From Pseudomonadota bacterium (lineage in GTDB: Bacteria; Desulfobacterota; Binatia; Binatales; Binataceae): 64,000 bases of DNA. The stretch is from positions 1 through 64,000 of the forward strand of contig JAJPKA010000020.1 of assembly GCA_021323945.1 (NCBI GenBank), in the 5' to 3' direction. Both the position numbers and the translations under genes were made by a program. Shown here piece after piece: positions 5,107 through 43,390 of this stretch. Below the pieces are notes generated by a model, which saw only the letters and a program-made list of their open reading frames with translations, searched no databases and was not told where the DNA came from. The stretch's first letter is position 1, and each line of letters begins with the position of its first letter.

Positions 5107-6150
5107 TTAGGCTAAAGCACCACTACAACTGGAACCGGCACCGGCCGTGCAACCGAAGCAATGGGGTCCGGTTACGATCCGGCTCCCACGGAGGGTACTA
5201 AGATCGTCGATTTGCCAAATCGTTAACGGAGTTCGCCGCACGGGAGAGATTGGCAGCTCCAACATCTGATTAAAATCACAATCGAACAACCTACCATCCC
5301 AGCCCACGCTTACCAGGCTGCGACACATCAGCCCATCCACCGTCGCGGGATTGAAGTGATTGACCAGCAACCCCATGTATTCCGACAGCTTACCATCTTC
5401 TTGCAGCTGACGGGCGAACCGATTGATGGGCATATTGGTAATGGTCAGCAACCGGTCGAACACGATACCAAAATCGCGGCCCAACTCTTCACGATACCGG
5501 GCTTCGAGCTGCGCCTGCGCAGGTGGCAACGCTGCATCGAGTGGATTGTAGACCAAATCCAGTCTGAGCTCGCGGCCATAACCGAGCTGATTAAGCTGTC
5601 GCAATGCCGCGATGCTTTTGGCAAACACCCCACGACCACGCTGACGCTCGACATTTTCGGGGCGATAACAAGGTAAGGAACAAATCAGGTGGACGTTCTC
5701 CTGGCGATAAAAATCCGCCAACCAATCCATCCCTGGTTCAAACAGCACAGTCAGATTACAGCGAACCTTGACCTGGTAGCCCCTGCTCCGCGCGTTTGTC
5801 ACCAGCCATCGGAAATTCGGATTAAGCTCGGGCGCGCCACCCGTGATATCGATCTCGCGGATACAGGAGCTGGTCGCCAGTAGGTCGAGTAGCCGTTGAG
5901 CAGTCGATAAAGTCATCACTTCGGTGCGCTTGGGCCCGGCATCGACGTGACAATGATGGCAGGCCTGATTGCAGAGCTTGCCAAGGTTGACTTGCAAGGC
6001 CACAGGCGCCTGTGTGCGGCGCAGCGGTCCTAATCCGTGCCGGATCAGGACCGCCTCAAAACTCGGAGTCAGAGGGTTAGGAGGATCTCGCTTTGGCAGG
6101 GATTGCTCCACTTGGTTGTCACGAACAGGAGAGCCTTGGCCTGTCCCCAA
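5107..6150 (-). CDS. arsS: ArsS-type radical SAM protein (Cys form of the rSAM/SeCys family)
   Basis: Radical SAM enzyme of the family linked to arsenosugar formation (ArsS; also described as rSAM/selenocysteine). CxxxCxxC is at C60, C64 and C67 (LCNQACHHCHVDAG), the SAM-cluster motif with the family's HVDAGP continuation. The C terminus, CFGCTAGAGSSCSG, keeps the auxiliary cysteines C331, C334 and C342. Cys342 (codon TGT) is where many relatives carry selenocysteine. It starts with TTG only 5 bases after the rpoD stop, so it is probably cotranscribed. No arsM or ars resistance gene is nearby, so the arsenic role rests on family membership alone. Confidence 0.82.
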   Translation of the reverse strand: MGTGQGSPVRDNQVEQSLPKRDPPNPLTPSFEAVLIRHGLGPLRRTQAPVALQVNLGKLCNQACHHCHVDAGPKRTEVMTLSTAQRLLDLLATSSCIREIDITGGAPELNPNFRWLVTNARSRGYQVKVRCNLTVLFEPGMDWLADFYRQENVHLICSLPCYRPENVERQRGRGVFAKSIAALRQLNQLGYGRELRLDLVYNPLDAALPPAQAQLEARYREELGRDFGIVFDRLLTITNMPINRFARQLQEDGKLSEYMGLLVNHFNPATVDGLMCRSLVSVGWDGRLFDCDFNQMLELPISPVRRTPLTIWQIDDLSTLRGSRIVTGPHCFGCTAGAGSSCSGALA

Positions 6151-6155
6151 ATCTG

Positions 6156-7916
<1,761 letters not shown>

Positions 7917-35071: not shown

Positions 35072-35935
35072 TCACTTGGTGCCCACCGCCACGCCGACTC
35101 CGGGCAGCAATTCCTCCCAGTAAAAGTCGTTGAAGCCCGCCCTGCTGAACAAGTCAGCCAACTCACTGCCAGTGTAAAACCTGACCCAACCCGGGTCGCC
35201 CATTTGAGCAAAGGGGGCTGCCATCAGGTTGGCCCACCACGTTCCACCGTCAATCACAAAGCTTTTACCCTCGGGAACCAGAACTCGGTATATTTCTCGA
35301 AGCACGCCGACAGGATCGGGATAGTGATGAAATGCAAATGAGCAGTGAACGACGTCGAATTTTCCGGCAAATTCGGCCGGCAAGCGCGTAACCTCTGCCT
35401 GCCAGAAGGCGGTATTGCGATAGCCCGCTCGCTGTGCCGATCGCCAGGCAATTGTGACCATTTCATCGGCCAGATCGATGCCTACCACTTCGCCTTGCGG
35501 GAACATTCGCGCCAGTCGAAGGAGTTGCGTGCCGGGCCCACACCCCAGATCCAGAATCCTCGCCGCCGGGGGCGTCAGCCGTGCGATCAGCTTCATTGCC
35601 TCAGCGTCGACCGGGCGAGTAAAGGGTGCGACGACGACCTCATACAGGCTCGCTCCGCGCTCGAATTCCGCCACAGAAACCCGCTCAACCTCATCGCTGC
35701 GCAGGTATACAGGCTGCCGGCGATGAACACTGAACAGTTGACCCTCGCCGGGCGTGGGCGCGCGAGTTGGATACTTCCCGATCGAGCCGCGTGGAAAAAA
35801 GCCCAAATGTTTGACTGCGCGCATCGGATACAGCACCGTCGCCGCATAGGTCCACAACTGACTTAGATAAATCGCGGTCGGCACGTCCTTGGCCGGGTCA
35901 AACTGCCACGCGCATCGTACATGCTCGCCTGACAT
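35072..35935 (-). CDS. Class I SAM-dependent methyltransferase (UbiE-like)
   Basis: 287 residues. Motif I is RILDLGCGPGTQLLRLA, followed by VVGIDLADEM (acidic ribose binder), FDVVHCSFAFHHYPDP (motif IV) and VLREIYRVLVPEGKSFVIDG. The N-terminal ~70 residues are specific to this subgroup. AAGGAGAG lies at ideal spacing before the ATG. It is divergent from the epimerase gene (52 bases) beside the isoprenoid-type operon, so a role in modifying that product is possible but unproven. Confidence 0.85.
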   Translation of the reverse strand: MSGEHVRCAWQFDPAKDVPTAIYLSQLWTYAATVLYPMRAVKHLGFFPRGSIGKYPTRAPTPGEGQLFSVHRRQPVYLRSDEVERVSVAEFERGASLYEVVVAPFTRPVDAEAMKLIARLTPPAARILDLGCGPGTQLLRLARMFPQGEVVGIDLADEMVTIAWRSAQRAGYRNTAFWQAEVTRLPAEFAGKFDVVHCSFAFHHYPDPVGVLREIYRVLVPEGKSFVIDGGTWWANLMAAPFAQMGDPGWVRFYTGSELADLFSRAGFNDFYWEELLPGVGVAVGTK

Positions 35936-35987: not shown

Positions 35988-36986
35988 ATGGGAAGGGCGA
36001 AATCCAGTGCTCTGGTTATCGGGGCCGGTGGCCACGTCGGCAATGCGATCGCGCGAGCGCTGCTCGCCGCAGGGTGGACCGTCACCGCGTGTGGTCGCCG
36101 TCGCACTCCCCCTCTCAATCTACGCAACTTGCCGCTAACCTATCGCACCGGCGATGTTGAGGCGCCGGGTCAACTTGACCGTTGGATCGACCATCACGAC
36201 CTGGTGGTAGATGCGGCGGCGCCATATCCAATGGAATTAATCTTTCCTGGGGTGGAACCGAAACAGGCCCCCTTTGCCGCCGCCGAAGTGCGCACTGCTC
36301 GAATTATTGAGGCGATTAAACGGCATGACGTCACGCTCGTGTATGTTGGCTCGTTCATTAGTCAAGTCGCTCCGCGCACTGCGGCGCAGCGTCTTCGTGC
36401 CCGGCTCATCCGATGGACGCTGCCGTATTTTGAGGTGAAGGAATTGATCGAGTCTCGCCTGCTGGACGCGTCGAGGCGAGGCTTGCGGGTCATACTGCTC
36501 AATCCTACATACTGTCTTGGCCCGTGGGACCTGCACGATCGTCGCGTATGCACCATCCCGTTGCTCCTGAGCGGTGAGATTCCAGGCTGGATTACCCAGA
36601 TGCTCAACGTGGTCGACGTTCGCGATCTGGCCGCTGCGGCTCTGCGCGCTCTCGCGACCGAGCGATTCGGGGAGCCGCTTCTTATAAGCGGCCACCAAAT
36701 TTCGACTTACGACTTCTACTCACTGATATGCCGGCTTGGAGGCGTAAAGACTCCGCGTTTTGCCACCTCCGCCACCCTGGCGATGATCGGCTCATATCTG
36801 TTGGAAATGGGTTATAGCGTGCTCGGCCAACAAACCCCGATTATCACAGCGGGAATGATGATGGCGACGGCGATAGATTACCTCGAAACTGGCTCCGCCT
36901 TGAAAGGGTTGGGCATCGTGCCGCGACCACTGAGTGAGACGGTTCGCGACGCTATCGAATGGTACCGGATGATCGGCTACTGCTAG
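35988..36986 (+). CDS. NAD-dependent epimerase/dehydratase family protein, HpnA-like
   Basis: 332 residues, extended SDR. The cofactor motif is VIGAGGHVGNAIARALL, the active-site YxxxK is in YFEVKELIE, and a substrate-side block is LNPTYCLGPWD...LNVVDVRDLAAAAL, similar in layout to hopanoid-associated HpnA and 3-beta-HSD-like reductases. ATG 35988 starts the protein directly before the glycine motif; upstream in-frame codons look non-coding. It converges on the isoprenoid-type operon with only 6 bases between stops. Confidence 0.82.
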   Translation: MGRAKSSALVIGAGGHVGNAIARALLAAGWTVTACGRRRTPPLNLRNLPLTYRTGDVEAPGQLDRWIDHHDLVVDAAAPYPMELIFPGVEPKQAPFAAAEVRTARIIEAIKRHDVTLVYVGSFISQVAPRTAAQRLRARLIRWTLPYFEVKELIESRLLDASRRGLRVILLNPTYCLGPWDLHDRRVCTIPLLLSGEIPGWITQMLNVVDVRDLAAAALRALATERFGEPLLISGHQISTYDFYSLICRLGGVKTPRFATSATLAMIGSYLLEMGYSVLGQQTPIITAGMMMATAIDYLETGSALKGLGIVPRPLSETVRDAIEWYRMIGYC

Positions 36987-36992
36987 AACAGT

Positions 36993-39455
36993 TCATACCG
37001 CAGTTGGTTCGAAGCCGGGACCTTTCCAACCGTCTTTTCCGATTCTCCACCATCCAATTCCCGATGAGACAGCTCTCATTTTGCCACTGACAACCAACGA
37101 AGCCGACTTATTCACCCCCCGAGCCACTGGTCGCACGCGATAGACCCTTGTGGCGTGCGGCCAATCCTCACCCGCAGCAGGTGTAAAAACTTCGCGCTTC
37201 AAGCCCAGATTTGCTGCGATCGAGATTGCCGGGTATTCGGGTATCCGCAGTTCCAGATCGGCATCCAGCCATTGTATATCGTCCGGTATAAACTGGCGTT
37301 CCAACCAGACAGATGCTTGATAGTCAGCTTTTTGCGGATCGTTGGCGTTTCGCACCTGTTTGAGGGCTATACCATAAAATTTATATTGTCTCTGGCCCGA
37401 GCCGGACCCAGGCGCAAAATTCGGTAATCCCAAAGTTTGCAATGCTGAACCCACGGTTGACGCGGCACTGAGTTTACCCTCTGCTTCCGCTTGATCTCCA
37501 GCGTATGAAGCTGCGATCTCTATCACGGGCAGGTCAAGGACTTCCTCCGAATGCGCGCCATCGGGGAACAACTGCGTGCAGATCCGAAGTTCGGGTGTCA
37601 ATGCGGCGCGCGGGGGTAACGTAAATGGAAACGGGGCACTATCGAAGGTCGCTTGTAGTGTCCAGCGGCCATACACCTCGGCGCTGGTTATTGCGTTCCA
37701 GGTGGTCCCGGCGAACGTATAGATAGACACCAGGCCTACACCCGACGTTTTGGGCTTTGCGTAGTTGTTGGTCCAGATTACCGGCACTGCGAAAGTGAAT
37801 TCATAGTCATCGTACCTGATGCTGCGGGCGCTGACTGTTTCCATTTCCTCGAAGTTGCTGAGAATTGCCAGCACCGCCGCATGACCCCTGGCTGCACTAC
37901 CTTCGGGAAAGCGGATCGGGGCAAAGTCAAAGTAGCCGGTCGAACCGAGCCCGTCGGCGGCGGGATGCGCATTGCCCAGGTAATTCGCGATTAGCGCGGC
38001 GATCTTCGTATAATCGGCGGCGAGGGGCAGGATCCTCATCGTCAGATGTGGAAATTGAGTCGGTGCTGGGATCTCTTCAGCGGCACCGGCACCCAGTTTT
38101 ATGTAGGGAATATCCAGCCGTTTCTCGCGAAGCTGAGGAGTATTGTTCTCGGTCCAGTCGCTCCAAGTGGTACGCCACGCCTGATAATTAGCCAATCCGT
38201 AACGAAGATCCATCTTCACCCAGAAGGGTAGAAACGGGACGATCCGGTAACGGCGCGACTCTTCACCCCATGATTTCGACGGATCCGGCGTTGACTCAAA
38301 GAGTTGATAATGAATTCCAAGCTCAAGTGGACCCGCACCTTCCTCCTGTTCGAACAGATCGATATATATTCCGGCTGCCGGATCCGGATTAGTCGCATCA
38401 ACCAGTGAGCCCCCGTTCGAGATGCTTTTGATTAGCATCTGCGACTCAACAATTCCCTGGTAACAGGCCCGCTGATGTGAGTGCTTGCGCTCATCATCAA
38501 TGTCTCTCACCTGCTTAAAGGTAATAATACTGGTCGGCGTACTCACCTGGGCACGATCGGGTGAATAGGCGCCGGCCTGAGCAAGCCAGGCCGGTAGGTA
38601 GTTCGCAATCATGCGACCATACGCGGGAAGAATCGCCAGGAGACTACCAAGCTGCCGGGAGGGCAATTGAGCCGAATTCAACATGAACTTCAGAGCTTCC
38701 CAGCCGGTATTTAACGATGCGCCGATTGCCCGCGGTACCGCGCTCAGGACATCGGTCACCAGCGAACTGGTGGCTTGCAGATACCTCCCCTGCCGGATCT
38801 CTATCAATCTTCTCCTGAAAGCATCGCTCCTGGGCGTCCTACCGGGTATCACCCGGTTTGCGGCCAATAGCAACAGTTCGCCGGGGGGATTGAACACCGG
38901 CGCCAATGGCACCGGTAGCGAGTTCTCGCCATGCCTGCGCAACAGCGCGACTTCGATCGGTGCCTTGCTCCAGCCGTAGATCTCGCGGCCACCAGCGATT
39001 CCTAGCGGACTATCGACGTAGACATAGGGATAGATGAGAGCGTACTTGAGAAACGTAAGGGCATCGCCTTGCCGCGCGTACCATTCAACCGCCATCCCGA
39101 AGGCGATTTCACGTTGCGCAAACCATCCCGCATTCGCGATGTTGGAGGAAAGGCGGCCATAGTTGGCCACCTCGAGTAACACGAACGGTGCTGCGGGCTT
39201 GAAATAGACCGGCGGTGCATCCTCCAGGCTGGTTCCGCCTGGAAAATTGAGGTAACGGTCCAGAAAGTTCTGCATGCGAGTCGGATCAGCGCTTAAAGGA
39301 AAAATGTAGGCGAGCACGTCATCCAGGTCTTCGCGCAGGTTGCTCGGCAGGATGTCTTCGACCGTGTTGTTGTAGGCGGCAAGGTTGTCTGTGCTCGGCC
39401 GCAGTCCAGGCGCGGCCGGAGCGTCATCATTGGGGCTCAGCCTGGTGCTGGGCAT
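36993..39455 (-). CDS. Large protein with two acetoacetate-decarboxylase-like halves
   Basis: 820 residues, function unknown. In the N-terminal half YVYVDSPLGIAGGREIYGWSK (145-164) matches the active-site strand of acetoacetate decarboxylase (YLDN..A..GRE....PKK); Lys164 aligns with the Schiff-base lysine, while the next position is Ala instead of the second Lys. The C-terminal half repeats the layout (VSIYTFAGTTWNAITSAEVYGRW) without the lysine. This two-domain reading is my inference. It has no signal peptide or membrane segment. It is the last gene of a four-gene operon, 8 bases after the polyprenyl synthetase stop, with a GAGGTGAA ribosome site inside that gap. Confidence 0.6.
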   Translation of the reverse strand: MPSTRLSPNDDAPAAPGLRPSTDNLAAYNNTVEDILPSNLREDLDDVLAYIFPLSADPTRMQNFLDRYLNFPGGTSLEDAPPVYFKPAAPFVLLEVANYGRLSSNIANAGWFAQREIAFGMAVEWYARQGDALTFLKYALIYPYVYVDSPLGIAGGREIYGWSKAPIEVALLRRHGENSLPVPLAPVFNPPGELLLLAANRVIPGRTPRSDAFRRRLIEIRQGRYLQATSSLVTDVLSAVPRAIGASLNTGWEALKFMLNSAQLPSRQLGSLLAILPAYGRMIANYLPAWLAQAGAYSPDRAQVSTPTSIITFKQVRDIDDERKHSHQRACYQGIVESQMLIKSISNGGSLVDATNPDPAAGIYIDLFEQEEGAGPLELGIHYQLFESTPDPSKSWGEESRRYRIVPFLPFWVKMDLRYGLANYQAWRTTWSDWTENNTPQLREKRLDIPYIKLGAGAAEEIPAPTQFPHLTMRILPLAADYTKIAALIANYLGNAHPAADGLGSTGYFDFAPIRFPEGSAARGHAAVLAILSNFEEMETVSARSIRYDDYEFTFAVPVIWTNNYAKPKTSGVGLVSIYTFAGTTWNAITSAEVYGRWTLQATFDSAPFPFTLPPRAALTPELRICTQLFPDGAHSEEVLDLPVIEIAASYAGDQAEAEGKLSAASTVGSALQTLGLPNFAPGSGSGQRQYKFYGIALKQVRNANDPQKADYQASVWLERQFIPDDIQWLDADLELRIPEYPAISIAANLGLKREVFTPAAGEDWPHATRVYRVRPVARGVNKSASLVVSGKMRAVSSGIGWWRIGKDGWKGPGFEPTAV

Positions 39456-39463
39456 GCTTCACC

Positions 39464-40516
39464 TCATTTGCGTTCGATTACCCATATCGGCATCTGTTGA
39501 AAGAATTCTTTGTCGCGTGAATCGGGGATTTGCTCGGCAATCAGGTCAAATTCGTGCAGAGCCGCTCCAGCCAGCTCCTGGGCCATTTGTCGCGCATAGG
39601 GAATCGCCTGGTACTTGCCAATCAGCTGCCGCATCCATCTCACCTCCTGCGCCGTCCGCTCACTGCGTGTCCTGCAGAGAATGGAGCACAACCGCTCTCG
39701 CTCCTCGATGCTCGATTGGTGCAGTACGCGAATCAGCATCAGGGTCCGCTTGCCTTCCCACAGATCGCCGTCGCGCTCCTTGCCATAGCGATAGTCGCCG
39801 GACAAGTTGAGCAAGTCATCCTGGATTTGGAAGGCTGCTCCCAGGAAAAAGCCGAAACGCACAAAGGCGTCGGGATCCACGCTCCCGCGACTGCCAATCA
39901 GGACGCCGGCGCGAATCGGAAAGATAGTAGCCAGCCAGCAGGTCTTCTTAAGCACCATTTCGAGATACTGACCCTCGTCTATCGAGGTTGCGTTATGTTG
40001 TCGCCATCCCAAATCGATCGCCTGGCCCTCCGCACACTCACGCCCCATCCGCTGCATGTCATCAAACAGTCGCAGCCATAAACCGTCGGCGATTCTGCGG
40101 CGAGCCTCGAGAAGGGGCTCCAACGCTATCAGGGTCAGCGCGTCACCAGCATTGAGTGCCAGCGGGATTCCATGGACCCGGTGGAGCGCAGGGCCACCCC
40201 GCCGCTGCTCGCTGCCGTCCTCAATGTCGTCATGGATCAGAAGCGCATTGTGGAGTAGTTCAATCGCCACCGCGACGTGGAGCACTTCTTCGGTTTGTCC
40301 GCCGAACATCCGCGCCGCCGCGATACAGATCGTCGGTCTCATCATTTTGCCGGAGCGAGCCGGATAATCCGCGAGCAAGTCGTAGAGATACTTCCTGGGC
40401 TCACGGTCCGGCAGGTATTCGCACAACGCCGCCCGGGTGATACTGCCGTACTCGTCAAGCATCGCTTGGACCAGCTCTGTCTTTCCGTGAGTCACGAGAA
40501 CGCCCGATTGGGTCAC
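39464..40516 (-). CDS. Polyprenyl (isoprenyl) diphosphate synthase
   Basis: 350 residues, trans-isoprenyl diphosphate synthase. The first aspartate-rich motif is LIHDDIED (96-100) with GSEQRRGGP; the second is FQIQDDLLNLSGD, followed by GDLWEGKRTLMLI. The DDxxD has no two-residue insert, and the residue five before it is Ala, which in this family points to products of C20 or longer (inference). It starts with GTG in a 4-base GTGA overlap with the preceding gene, so the two are translationally coupled. Confidence 0.9.
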   Translation of the reverse strand: MTQSGVLVTHGKTELVQAMLDEYGSITRAALCEYLPDREPRKYLYDLLADYPARSGKMMRPTICIAAARMFGGQTEEVLHVAVAIELLHNALLIHDDIEDGSEQRRGGPALHRVHGIPLALNAGDALTLIALEPLLEARRRIADGLWLRLFDDMQRMGRECAEGQAIDLGWRQHNATSIDEGQYLEMVLKKTCWLATIFPIRAGVLIGSRGSVDPDAFVRFGFFLGAAFQIQDDLLNLSGDYRYGKERDGDLWEGKRTLMLIRVLHQSSIEERERLCSILCRTRSERTAQEVRWMRQLIGKYQAIPYARQMAQELAGAALHEFDLIAEQIPDSRDKEFFQQMPIWVIERK

Positions 40517-41217
40517 GGATCAGCGATTCGCAGCGTAAGCATTCCGCGACTCTCGCCTGTCTCTCGGTTGACGATCACGCCGCAGTAGTTTCCGGATGGA
40601 GCGCAGGGCGGCACCCGAATTCGAAACCTCAGCCGGCCAGCTTCATCAGGCTCAATTTGGATATCCGAGAGCTCGGGTTTACCGGGATCGACTGCCCGCA
40701 ATCCAAGGGTGACCAAAGGCATTTGCTCCGAGTGCTCTCGCAGATCGACCAAAACCGTAACCGGCCGGTTGGCAGCCATTTCAATCGCGATTGCAACCCC
40801 GCGCTGGACACCGTCGGACTTGTCCGCCACCGTCGACTGCGAGGCCGACGGCACCCGCGGCGGATCGATGCTGACGGCTGAGGCTAGTGCCTCGAGCCAT
40901 AAGGGCAACAGCTCGCTCGCTAGTCGCAGACTGCGCTCGATTACTTCTTGTAGACGGTCGGTAGCCGGCCGGGTGCTGTAATGCTGACCGTTGAGTTGAG
41001 CCGCTGCCCGCCGGCCGTCGTTGATGTGCTTATCAATCACCTGGTAAGCGAGTTCCACCCAGTGGGCGGTTCGACCTGCTGAACCGCTGACGGTTCCGCT
41101 CGCACTGGTTTCTCGGTTCGCCTCGCCGGGCCATTGTGGAGAAAAAGTCTTGCCAAAACTTCGAATCGGCCCGGTTCTTTCGGGATCCGGGCGGCGAAGC
41201 CGTGTTTCGTCCCCCAT
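40513..41217 (-). CDS. Unknown 234-residue protein, helical plus beta-sandwich
   Basis: I do not recognise a family. The N-terminal ~40 residues look disordered. Residues about 50-125 are an amphipathic helical region (ELAYQVIDKHINDGRRAAAQL; ERSLRLASELLPLWLEAL) that recalls phasin-like packing. The last ~95 residues (RPVTVLVDLREHS...LRFRIRVPPCAPSGNYCGVIVNRETG) read as an Ig-like beta-sandwich. It lies between the FAD enzyme (13 bases upstream) and the prenyl synthase (4-base overlap), so it is probably a partner or scaffold of the pathway. Confidence 0.7.
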   Translation of the reverse strand: MGDETRLRRPDPERTGPIRSFGKTFSPQWPGEANRETSASGTVSGSAGRTAHWVELAYQVIDKHINDGRRAAAQLNGQHYSTRPATDRLQEVIERSLRLASELLPLWLEALASAVSIDPPRVPSASQSTVADKSDGVQRGVAIAIEMAANRPVTVLVDLREHSEQMPLVTLGLRAVDPGKPELSDIQIEPDEAGRLRFRIRVPPCAPSGNYCGVIVNRETGESRGMLTLRIADP

Positions 41218-41230
41218 TGGCCGTGCCCTT

Positions 41231-43390
41231 TTACGGATGGTCGTAGCCGACGATTTCGGACAACGGAGGATAGCCGGAAATCGCGTGAGCGGCCAGCTTG
41301 CCCGCGATCACGGCAGATTCGACGCATCCTGTATCGAGCCCGCAGGCTGTCCAGTCACCCGCGATCGTCAGGTTATCGTAGGTATTGTCGAGCGGCGAGA
41401 TACGGTATTTCTGCGTACCGGGGGTCGACAGGACATAACGATCACTTGGGTTAACATTGGCGGTATAGAATTGCGTATTGAACCGCTCCTCCCCCTGCGT
41501 TTGGTCTGCCACGTTGGGACTCATCAGCAATTCCCACCTGAAAGCACCCGATGGCGTCACGGCTTTAGGCCACAACTGACCAATACAGGAATTGAGAAAG
41601 GCGATGGCGTCGCACTTCACCTGCTCGCGGCGCCTCAAATCATAGTCAGGTTGCTCTCGGGCCTGGTCCTCAGCGCCACTCATGGCACTGCAAAAGTAGG
41701 CAATTGCCCTGGGAGAGATTGGCCACCGCTCCTCGTCGATCAAATGACGCATGTCGCCCCAGGTATCGAAGGGTCGGGCAAAACCGCACATCGAGACCGC
41801 CGGTCCCGGCCATCCCAGGGCTTCCATGTCCTCATTCATCCACAATTGGAAAGCCTGGGTCTCAATCGTTGGAATATTCGCCACCATCTCTCGCCAGCGC
41901 TGGTCGCGTGCGAGCAGTTCGGGGCAAACATATGGGATCGCGCCCAGGCCGACCGCCAGAATGACAAAGTCAAAGTCTTTGCGGACTCTTAGGGTTTTTC
42001 GCGAGGTGCACCGGGTGTCCCAGTGAGACTCGAATCTGCGATCGCGCAATTCGTCGGCGTCGACCAGCTGGGCCAGATCCGGAGCTGACGGCCAGCACGG
42101 CAGGCCATCCACATCGATCAGCGGCTGATATTCGCCGTGCTTGACTTCGGCCTGAACCGCGAACTCCAGCGCCTTGACGTAAGGCCGCTCACCAGGCATC
42201 AGCTCGGCCTTATCCGCGATTCGCACCGCCTCGAGGCGATGAAAAAACTGGAACGATACCCCGCGCCGCTTCAGTACCTGATAAAGCGGGGCGAACACCA
42301 CGTCGCCCATCCCCGCGCGCATCTTCCAAACAATCGCCCCTCGATAGGTAAACAGAAATCGCAGCGAACCGCGCAGAGCGACGCCGGCCGCATGTCGTGC
42401 TTTCGAATAGTCGCCGTTTTCATAGGCCATCGCCAGGTCGTACGATGCGCGCACCAGAGGGGAATTGATCGTCGTCTCCGAGGCACCGTTAAGCCGCATC
42501 CACTCGCGGAAATCGTACTCATTGATAGCGTCGAATCCGCGCGGGTCGGAGAAAAGGCCGAACCGGATTATCCCAATCATCGAGGTCAGTTCAAGGTCGA
42601 TAGCCTGCCAAAGGACCTCAACCTCTGGGTCGTTATTGATCAGGCTCTCGACTTGCATTCGCAGGGTCGAGGCGATTGTCTGCAAGACCGGAACGAAAAG
42701 TTCCGGGTATATGGCCGAACGCTCGCACAGGCTCTGCAGAATGCCCAAAGCTTCCAGTATCCCGGCCGTAGTCGCCAAAAGCCCCAACTTTAGAAGACGA
42801 GCAATCCGGTTGACCGCCAGGCTCGGCCAGTCTGGCGTCGCCCAAATCGGGCGGTCGGGAGTTTCGAAAGATGGTGGCTGGTTGGCGTCGGGGCGCAGCT
42901 TCCGCTCGACCGTCAGCAGCATCGTTCGTAAGGCATTGGCCGCGTGCGCCAGATATGAATTCACCGTAAACGGGTTGTTTTGTGAGATCGGATCGCCCGG
43001 GAGTCCCTCTGCAGCGGGGAAGTACGACGTCAGGATTGAGTAGGAATTATCAGGTTTGGGTGCGGCGACCGTTAGAAACGGCGCCGGGAAGAACGCGTCG
43101 CGCCAGTCCGCGATGCGACATGAACGCGGGTCACGTCCCAGCTCGCGGTAGCATTCCCGGATCAGCCGGAAAGCGTTTTCGTAAAAGCCCATCCAAACAT
43201 GAAAGCCATGCTCCTCGATGCGACTGTGGGGACCGCGACCCGAAGCTCCCTTTCCGCCCAACCTCCAGCCCAGCTGGTAGAGGGTAACCTGGTACTTCCC
43301 GTTATGCTCCGGGCGGCTTAACTCGAAGGCGGCGGCAATTCCTGCACACCCCCCGCCGACGATGGCGACCTTGACCGGACGTGAACCCAA
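41231..43390 (-). CDS. FAD-dependent desaturase/amine-oxidase-like protein
   Basis: 719 residues. The dinucleotide fold VAIVGGGCAGIAAAFEL is followed by WRLGGKGASGR and IEEHGFHVWMGFYENAF, the layout of carotenoid/phytoene desaturases and hydroxysqualene dehydroxylase-type enzymes. The C terminus has AGDWTACGLDTGCVESAVIAGKLA, the second FAD motif of that group. It is longer than typical carotenoid desaturases (about 500), with a helical insert in the middle. It begins with TTG four bases after AGGAGG. It is first in the four-gene operon, so it probably oxidises an isoprenoid product. Confidence 0.82.
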   Translation of the reverse strand: MGSRPVKVAIVGGGCAGIAAAFELSRPEHNGKYQVTLYQLGWRLGGKGASGRGPHSRIEEHGFHVWMGFYENAFRLIRECYRELGRDPRSCRIADWRDAFFPAPFLTVAAPKPDNSYSILTSYFPAAEGLPGDPISQNNPFTVNSYLAHAANALRTMLLTVERKLRPDANQPPSFETPDRPIWATPDWPSLAVNRIARLLKLGLLATTAGILEALGILQSLCERSAIYPELFVPVLQTIASTLRMQVESLINNDPEVEVLWQAIDLELTSMIGIIRFGLFSDPRGFDAINEYDFREWMRLNGASETTINSPLVRASYDLAMAYENGDYSKARHAAGVALRGSLRFLFTYRGAIVWKMRAGMGDVVFAPLYQVLKRRGVSFQFFHRLEAVRIADKAELMPGERPYVKALEFAVQAEVKHGEYQPLIDVDGLPCWPSAPDLAQLVDADELRDRRFESHWDTRCTSRKTLRVRKDFDFVILAVGLGAIPYVCPELLARDQRWREMVANIPTIETQAFQLWMNEDMEALGWPGPAVSMCGFARPFDTWGDMRHLIDEERWPISPRAIAYFCSAMSGAEDQAREQPDYDLRRREQVKCDAIAFLNSCIGQLWPKAVTPSGAFRWELLMSPNVADQTQGEERFNTQFYTANVNPSDRYVLSTPGTQKYRISPLDNTYDNLTIAGDWTACGLDTGCVESAVIAGKLAAHAISGYPPLSEIVGYDHP

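Follow-up and report, generated by a model that had tools for sequence, protein, structure and literature searches.

A widespread bacterial gene cassette that may direct the synthesis of an isoprenoid-type lipid

A 64,000-nucleotide stretch of a Binataceae contig, referred to here as the window, carries a compact group of genes that we interpret as a biosynthetic cassette dedicated to an isoprenoid-type lipid and spread by horizontal transfer. From sequence comparison and predicted structures, we place the probability of this reading at roughly 0.6. The core of the cassette encodes an FAD-dependent oxidoreductase (FAD), a protein without family name (P234), a prenyl diphosphate synthase, and a protein with acetoacetate decarboxylase (ADC) folds (Table 1). 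The ORF coordinates agree with a preliminary description of this DNA on the four genes, their order, and the spacing between them (13, -4, and 8 bases); all four lie on the minus strand. The ORF map also bears out that an HpnA-like gene, which encodes an extended short-chain dehydrogenase/reductase (SDR), converges on the operon, its end at 36986 and that of the ADC-like gene being 6 bases apart, and that a SAM methyltransferase gene adjoins it. The four-gene unit is real, conserved, and co-inherited, but it was drawn too narrowly, as a cyclase and a reductase are normally included; the cyclase gene of the window, uncounted in that description, is part of the conserved neighborhood. The methyltransferase, in turn, is mostly unconserved and was left out of the unit; only a few other loci (L088, L095, L125) have a similar gene in the vicinity of FAD. 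Because homology to its family starts near residue 40, the true start of the SDR is probably the ATG at 35988, the TTG at 35889 being too early. A promoter and terminator scan of the locus gave signals no more frequent than chance.

Table 1. Genes of the cassette and the adjoining methyltransferase in the window
Feature	Position	Strand	Remarks
FAD-dependent oxidoreductase (GR2/HpnE-CrtP-like clan), 719 aa, TTG start	41231..43390	-	PF13450 and PF01593 over cut-off
P234, 234-aa protein without family name	40513..41217	-	kept directly downstream of FAD gene
trans-Prenyl diphosphate synthase, GGPP-synthase-like, 350 aa, GTG start	39464..40516	-	PF00348; DDIED and DDLLN
Tandem acetoacetate-decarboxylase-fold (ADC-like) protein, 820 aa	36993..39455	-	fold match; Lys164 in GREIYGWSK
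Extended SDR, HpnA/SdmB-like, convergent with operon	35988..36986	+	HpnA model below cut-off; probable ATG start
Zn-ribbon, class III nucleotide cyclase, and AAA_16 NTPase, 1173 aa	31543..35064	+	PF00211 and PF13191 over cut-off
SAM methyltransferase beside SDR	35072-35935	-	

The FAD gene is patchily distributed among 57 related genomes, with a strong match in 15 (one a fragment). Both P234 and the ADC-like protein were found solely in FAD-positive genomes, the former in 11 of 15 versus 0 of 42 (Fisher p 7e-9) and the latter in 9 of 15 versus 0 of 42 (Fisher p 6e-7). Most loci of these relatives, viewed over up to 20 kb, show the FAD gene, P234, the synthase, the ADC-like gene, a convergent SDR, and then a cyclase protein of 1000-1200 aa. 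When the FAD alignment was run against 84,980 species genomes, at least 540 relatives were returned; the best 80 of them were kept, and the rates obtained from these 80 named loci describe that part of the family and not the whole. Within 9 kb of the FAD gene, 70 of the 80 carry the synthase, 58 P234, 51 the ADC-like gene, and 51 the cyclase, and the exact order FAD>P234>synthase is kept in 54. Where at least 8 kb is available on both sides (46 loci), the synthase is present in 40 and the cyclase in 38. Among the matches listed, the named relative closest to the FAD protein belongs to a Candidatus Binataceae MAG (from the same-genus genome G001), and the host is accordingly most likely a member of the Binatota.

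The recurrence of the set in other genomes, which the preliminary description had proposed as a check, extends to at least eight phyla. Carriers belong to Binatota, Pseudomonadota (Rhodopila globiformis, Methylotetracoccus, Xenophilus, Novosphingobium, Sulfitobacter, Variovorax), Myxococcota (Archangium, Polyangium, Enhygromyxa), Acidobacteriota, Gemmatimonadota, Cyanobacteriota (Synechococcus BO 8801, Aphanothece, Microcystis elabens), Actinomycetota (several Mycolicibacterium), and, with one MAG, Planctomycetota. Since many of these carriers are isolates, the cassette is not a binning artefact. The set had also been called undescribed, and a search of 5.4 million open-access papers for the gene combination yielded nothing relevant and no account of it.

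Divergence of the FAD protein is correlated with that of the synthase (rho 0.74), P234 (0.67), and the cyclase (0.65), against a shuffled maximum of 0.24, while the correlation with the ADC-like protein is weak (rho 0.30, shuffled maximum 0.39). As expected, the correlated divergence fits genes that travel together, a pattern that could arise by transfer of the whole set or by its vertical inheritance. FAD proteins from different phyla are as similar to one another as those within the family of the window, and this likeness speaks for spread of the cassette by horizontal transfer. The presence of the synthase changes state only four times on the FAD tree (86 rows), and three in-group rows that lack it (L087, L108, L134) are contig-edge truncations. 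The synthase was therefore probably gained once in the FAD family.

This synthase matches PF00348 at 175.5 bits (cut-off 27) and has the first motif DDIED and the second motif DDLLN, which places it among the trans-isoprenyl diphosphate synthases. The nearest solved structure is a GGPP synthase (1wmw), and the scores fall far below all NCBIfam chain-length equivalogs (best IdsA, 196 against 468; GGPP_syn, 163.5 against 500). The genome encodes two other prenyl synthases, an FPP synthase in the hopanoid operon and a second, roughly 50 kb farther on in the same contig, that scores with long-chain synthases among others; the cassette enzyme is thus a third copy, presumably dedicated to the cassette. 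An encapsulin compartment was also considered and set aside, as the model for polyprenyl-transferase cargo of family 2 encapsulins, f2_encap_cargo4 (NF041169), scored 166 bits, far below its cut-off of 450; a PF19307 search for the encapsulin shell gave no match in the genome or in any control genome.

The best NCBIfam model for the FAD protein is HpnE (TIGR03467) at 67 bits against a cut-off of 283, a score that places it outside HpnE. Its nearest models are HpnE and the plant-type carotene desaturases, all far below their curated cut-offs, and the matches from a profile search of the PDB were all short and weak and lay at the FAD-binding end. These nearest models, together with the resemblance of the SDR to HpnA, would fit an alternative branch of carotenoid or hopanoid biosynthesis. 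However, the SDR too scores far under the curated cut-off (131 bits on the HpnA model TIGR03466, cut-off 368, compared with 465 for the true HpnA of the genome), and a complete hopanoid operon encoding HpnH, FPP synthase, SHC, HpnC, HpnD, HpnE, and HpnA lies elsewhere in the same genome (G000:C15:40000-59900, locus L160). All of its genes for HpnH, SHC, HpnC, HpnD, HpnE, and HpnA exceed their cut-offs, with its own HpnE at 432 bits. The only two phytoene/squalene-synthase-family (PF00494) genes of the genome are both in this operon, on another contig, and none was found among the recurrent neighbors examined, in agreement with the earlier remark that no phytoene or squalene synthase sits beside the set. 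The cassette thus matches neither known pathway; a hopanoid or carotenoid assignment is rejected on the strength of the missed cut-offs and the separate complete operon, and we regard an alternative branch of either pathway as very improbable.

The 820-residue protein contains two ADC folds in tandem, spanning residues of about 21-434 and 458-802. The first half matches ADC at Z 19.4-19.6, the value of 19.6 being for the Legionella ADC and falling within residues 25-434, and the second matches the Methanoculleus ADC (Z 17.9); a Foldseek E value of 4e-10 supports membership in the ADC superfamily fold, and the fold matches include the aldolase-dehydratase 6eej and MppR. Residues K164, E116, and R157 are invariant in 27 ADC-like sequences. 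K164 lies in the first half within GREIYGWSK, in agreement with the Schiff-base lysine motif GREx.GxPK, which is present in most loci; in the second half the glutamate and glycine of this motif remain but the lysine is gone. The match to PF06314 is weak and below threshold (18.3 bits, cut-off 29.8). Single-domain relatives in the same kind of cluster pass this model, for example at 35.3 bits, and a single-domain version with the same motif occurs in Cyanobacteria, sphingomonads, and others. True acetoacetate decarboxylases have a second lysine directly after the Schiff-base lysine. Here the residue after K164 is alanine, and it is mostly not lysine in relatives, which sets the protein apart from the true decarboxylases. 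Because alanine rather than lysine follows K164, aldol-type chemistry, by analogy with ADC-like aldolase-dehydratases, would be at least as likely as decarboxylation. The ADC-like gene went undetected near the FAD gene in 28 of 86 loci, and a genome scan with the ADC-like protein alone gave no match, its patterns probably being too specific.

Outside the synthase-bearing group, FAD-ADC pairs occur without a prenyl synthase in L018, L151, L152, L155, and L156, and a natural fusion of the FAD oxidoreductase and ADC domains is found in Qingshengfaniella (L017:8830-11829) beside a cyclase and a Crp/Fnr regulator. The synthase-free pairs and fusion come from Gammaproteobacteria, Alphaproteobacteria, and others. 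In Azospirillum (L019:8911-15640), two FAD genes flank an ADC gene and a gene annotated as an outer-membrane transport protein. The FAD-ADC pair may be the older core of the system, and because pairs without any prenyl synthase exist, its ancestral substrate need not be an isoprenoid. For the same reason, we infer an isoprenoid substrate for the synthase-bearing group, and the terpenoid product of the preliminary description keeps this inferential standing, while the conserved unit and the imine-forming lysine retained in the ADC-like protein uphold other parts of that interpretation. A different chemistry is conceivable, in which FAD and ADC act on keto compounds derived from fatty acids or polyketides and the prenyl donor for a combined, meroterpenoid-like product comes from the synthase. 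Such a scheme would suit the synthase-free pairs and fusion as well as the transport protein annotated between the two Azospirillum FAD genes, but no aromatic prenyltransferase, ketosynthase, or thioesterase was found among the recurrent neighbors examined, and we consider it unlikely.

P234 is a new, unnamed protein family: each Pfam model finds at most one of the 47 members, and then only weakly. The AlphaFold model contains a helical hairpin (residues 47-115) and a C-terminal beta-sandwich (143-231, pLDDT about 95-98), and an N-terminal peptide, RxxRPxPxRxxPxR, is conserved. Whole-model Foldseek and VIA searches returned weak Ig-like sandwich matches only (Z 4.7 or less), none of them significant. 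Our guess is that P234 may be a scaffold or a lipid-facing partner. Alternatively, the locus could encode a lipid- or polyprenyl-granule system in which the other enzymes make a hydrophobic isoprenoid store and P234 forms its coat. The predicted hairpin and sandwich with the conserved basic N-terminal peptide might be expected of a surface protein; a search for Pfam families shared by the members, phasin included, nonetheless came up empty, and the fold search was without significant match, leaving a granule coat improbable. Some carriers have further genes in this region. In Mycolicibacterium (L149:4114-4866 and 6105-6812), ORFs near the prenyl synthase resemble P234 by eye, with a helical part and a C-terminal beta-sandwich, and a 536-aa protein without Pfam match (L149:4690-6300) is encoded between the P234-like ORFs and the cyclase and is conserved across seven mycobacterial loci. 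Rhodopila globiformis has a second P234-like gene near the cassette on the opposite strand (L082:19302-19751).

Two types of reductase accompany the cassette. The HpnA-like SDR is near the FAD gene in 18 of the 80 best-match named loci, and a saccharopine-dehydrogenase-like NAD(P)-binding protein is present in 40 of 86 loci. The two are nearly exclusive, with both in one locus and one alone in 39 and 21 (p 2.6e-6, loci not being independent), and the reductase type switches many times on the FAD tree. This near mutual exclusion and the many switches suggest that the two proteins carry out an equivalent step.

The cyclase protein matches PF00211 at 74.9 bits (cut-off 21.9) and contains the metal and substrate motifs FADLEGST, TGDG, and NLAAR, which identifies it as a class III cyclase. 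Its long C-terminal region is TPR-like by eye, and we take the architecture of cyclase, NTPase, and repeats to be akin to that of soluble adenylyl cyclase-like class III proteins. The only other near-full-length homologue in the genome (G000:C18:83267-86692) is split into two neighboring pieces, and one of the matches contains a TGA in frame; with just one such homologue, chance adjacency of the cyclase and the cassette is ruled out. Crp-type cyclic-nucleotide-binding regulators neighbor the cassette in several other genomes. The cyclase protein is likely a regulator of the cassette, and these arrangements are most simply read as control by cAMP or cGMP. We also weighed a role in cyclic-nucleotide defense or stress signaling, with the enzymes producing or processing the signal. 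PADLOC reports similarity to the Pycsar cyclase PycC, as this idea would predict, but the likeness is limited to the cyclase domain, there is no effector match among the six proteins, and the other genes encode metabolic enzymes, so that a defense role is most improbable.

Under the favored interpretation as a biosynthetic cassette for an isoprenoid-type lipid, the synthase would make a linear prenyl diphosphate, probably C20 (GGPP-like), and the flavoenzyme would oxidize or desaturate the chain; the closest named relatives of this flavoenzyme work on C30-C40 isoprenoids. The ADC-like protein would then form an imine between Lys164 and a carbonyl intermediate, followed by the making or breaking of a C-C bond, either by decarboxylation or by the aldol condensation-dehydration known from ADC-like aldolase-dehydratases, with the second ADC half serving a structural role. 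The product might be reduced by the SDR at the window locus, or by the saccharopine-dehydrogenase-like reductase elsewhere. P234 would be a non-enzymatic scaffold or lipid-facing partner, and the cyclase/NTPase protein would sense a condition and turn the cassette on via cAMP or cGMP. The catalytic motifs are intact in the synthase (DDxxD), the first ADC domain (Schiff-base Lys164), and the cyclase. Counting against this pathway, the cassette contains no transferase or cyclase that would consume the prenyl diphosphate.

More specifically, and tentatively, the cassette could define an undescribed class of isoprenoid lipid, built by a flavoenzyme and an imine-forming tandem ADC enzyme that makes or breaks C-C bonds in a prenyl chain, with a cyclase of its own as the switch and with horizontal transfer as the route to at least eight phyla. 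To our knowledge, action of an ADC-fold enzyme on prenyl chains would, if true, be new chemistry for the ADC superfamily. Because the same core genes are present in at least eight phyla, the product is likely a common but unrecognized bacterial compound. The wide gene set, the intact active sites, and the new family P234 together point to a common metabolite that is seemingly unassigned, and cultured carriers (Rhodopila globiformis, Novosphingobium sediminis, Mycolicibacterium, Variovorax, Archangium, Synechococcus) make this product directly searchable.

The cassette can be compared with four known systems. Like the HpnCDE squalene/hopanoid operon, it combines a prenyl synthase, a GR2-type flavoenzyme, and an HpnA-like SDR, but it lacks HpnC, HpnD, and SHC, and its ADC, P234, and cyclase have no counterpart there. 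It shares with the CrtI/CrtP carotenoid desaturase clusters a prenyl synthase and an FAD oxidoreductase, which in those clusters acts on polyprenes; it differs from them in having no phytoene synthase and in an FAD protein that scores far under the carotenoid-desaturase cut-offs. The ADC fold with a Schiff-base lysine is common to the ADC-like aldolase-dehydratases (Streptomyces bingchenggensis, Swit_4259) and MppR, whereas the cassette protein is a tandem whose second half is without the lysine and is encoded beside a prenyl synthase and a flavoenzyme. Finally, the cassette's cyclase has the cyclase, AAA_16 NTPase, and long C-terminal region of the class III cyclase-NTPase-repeat proteins, and is distinguished from them by its Zn-ribbon N-terminus and its fixed link to the cassette.
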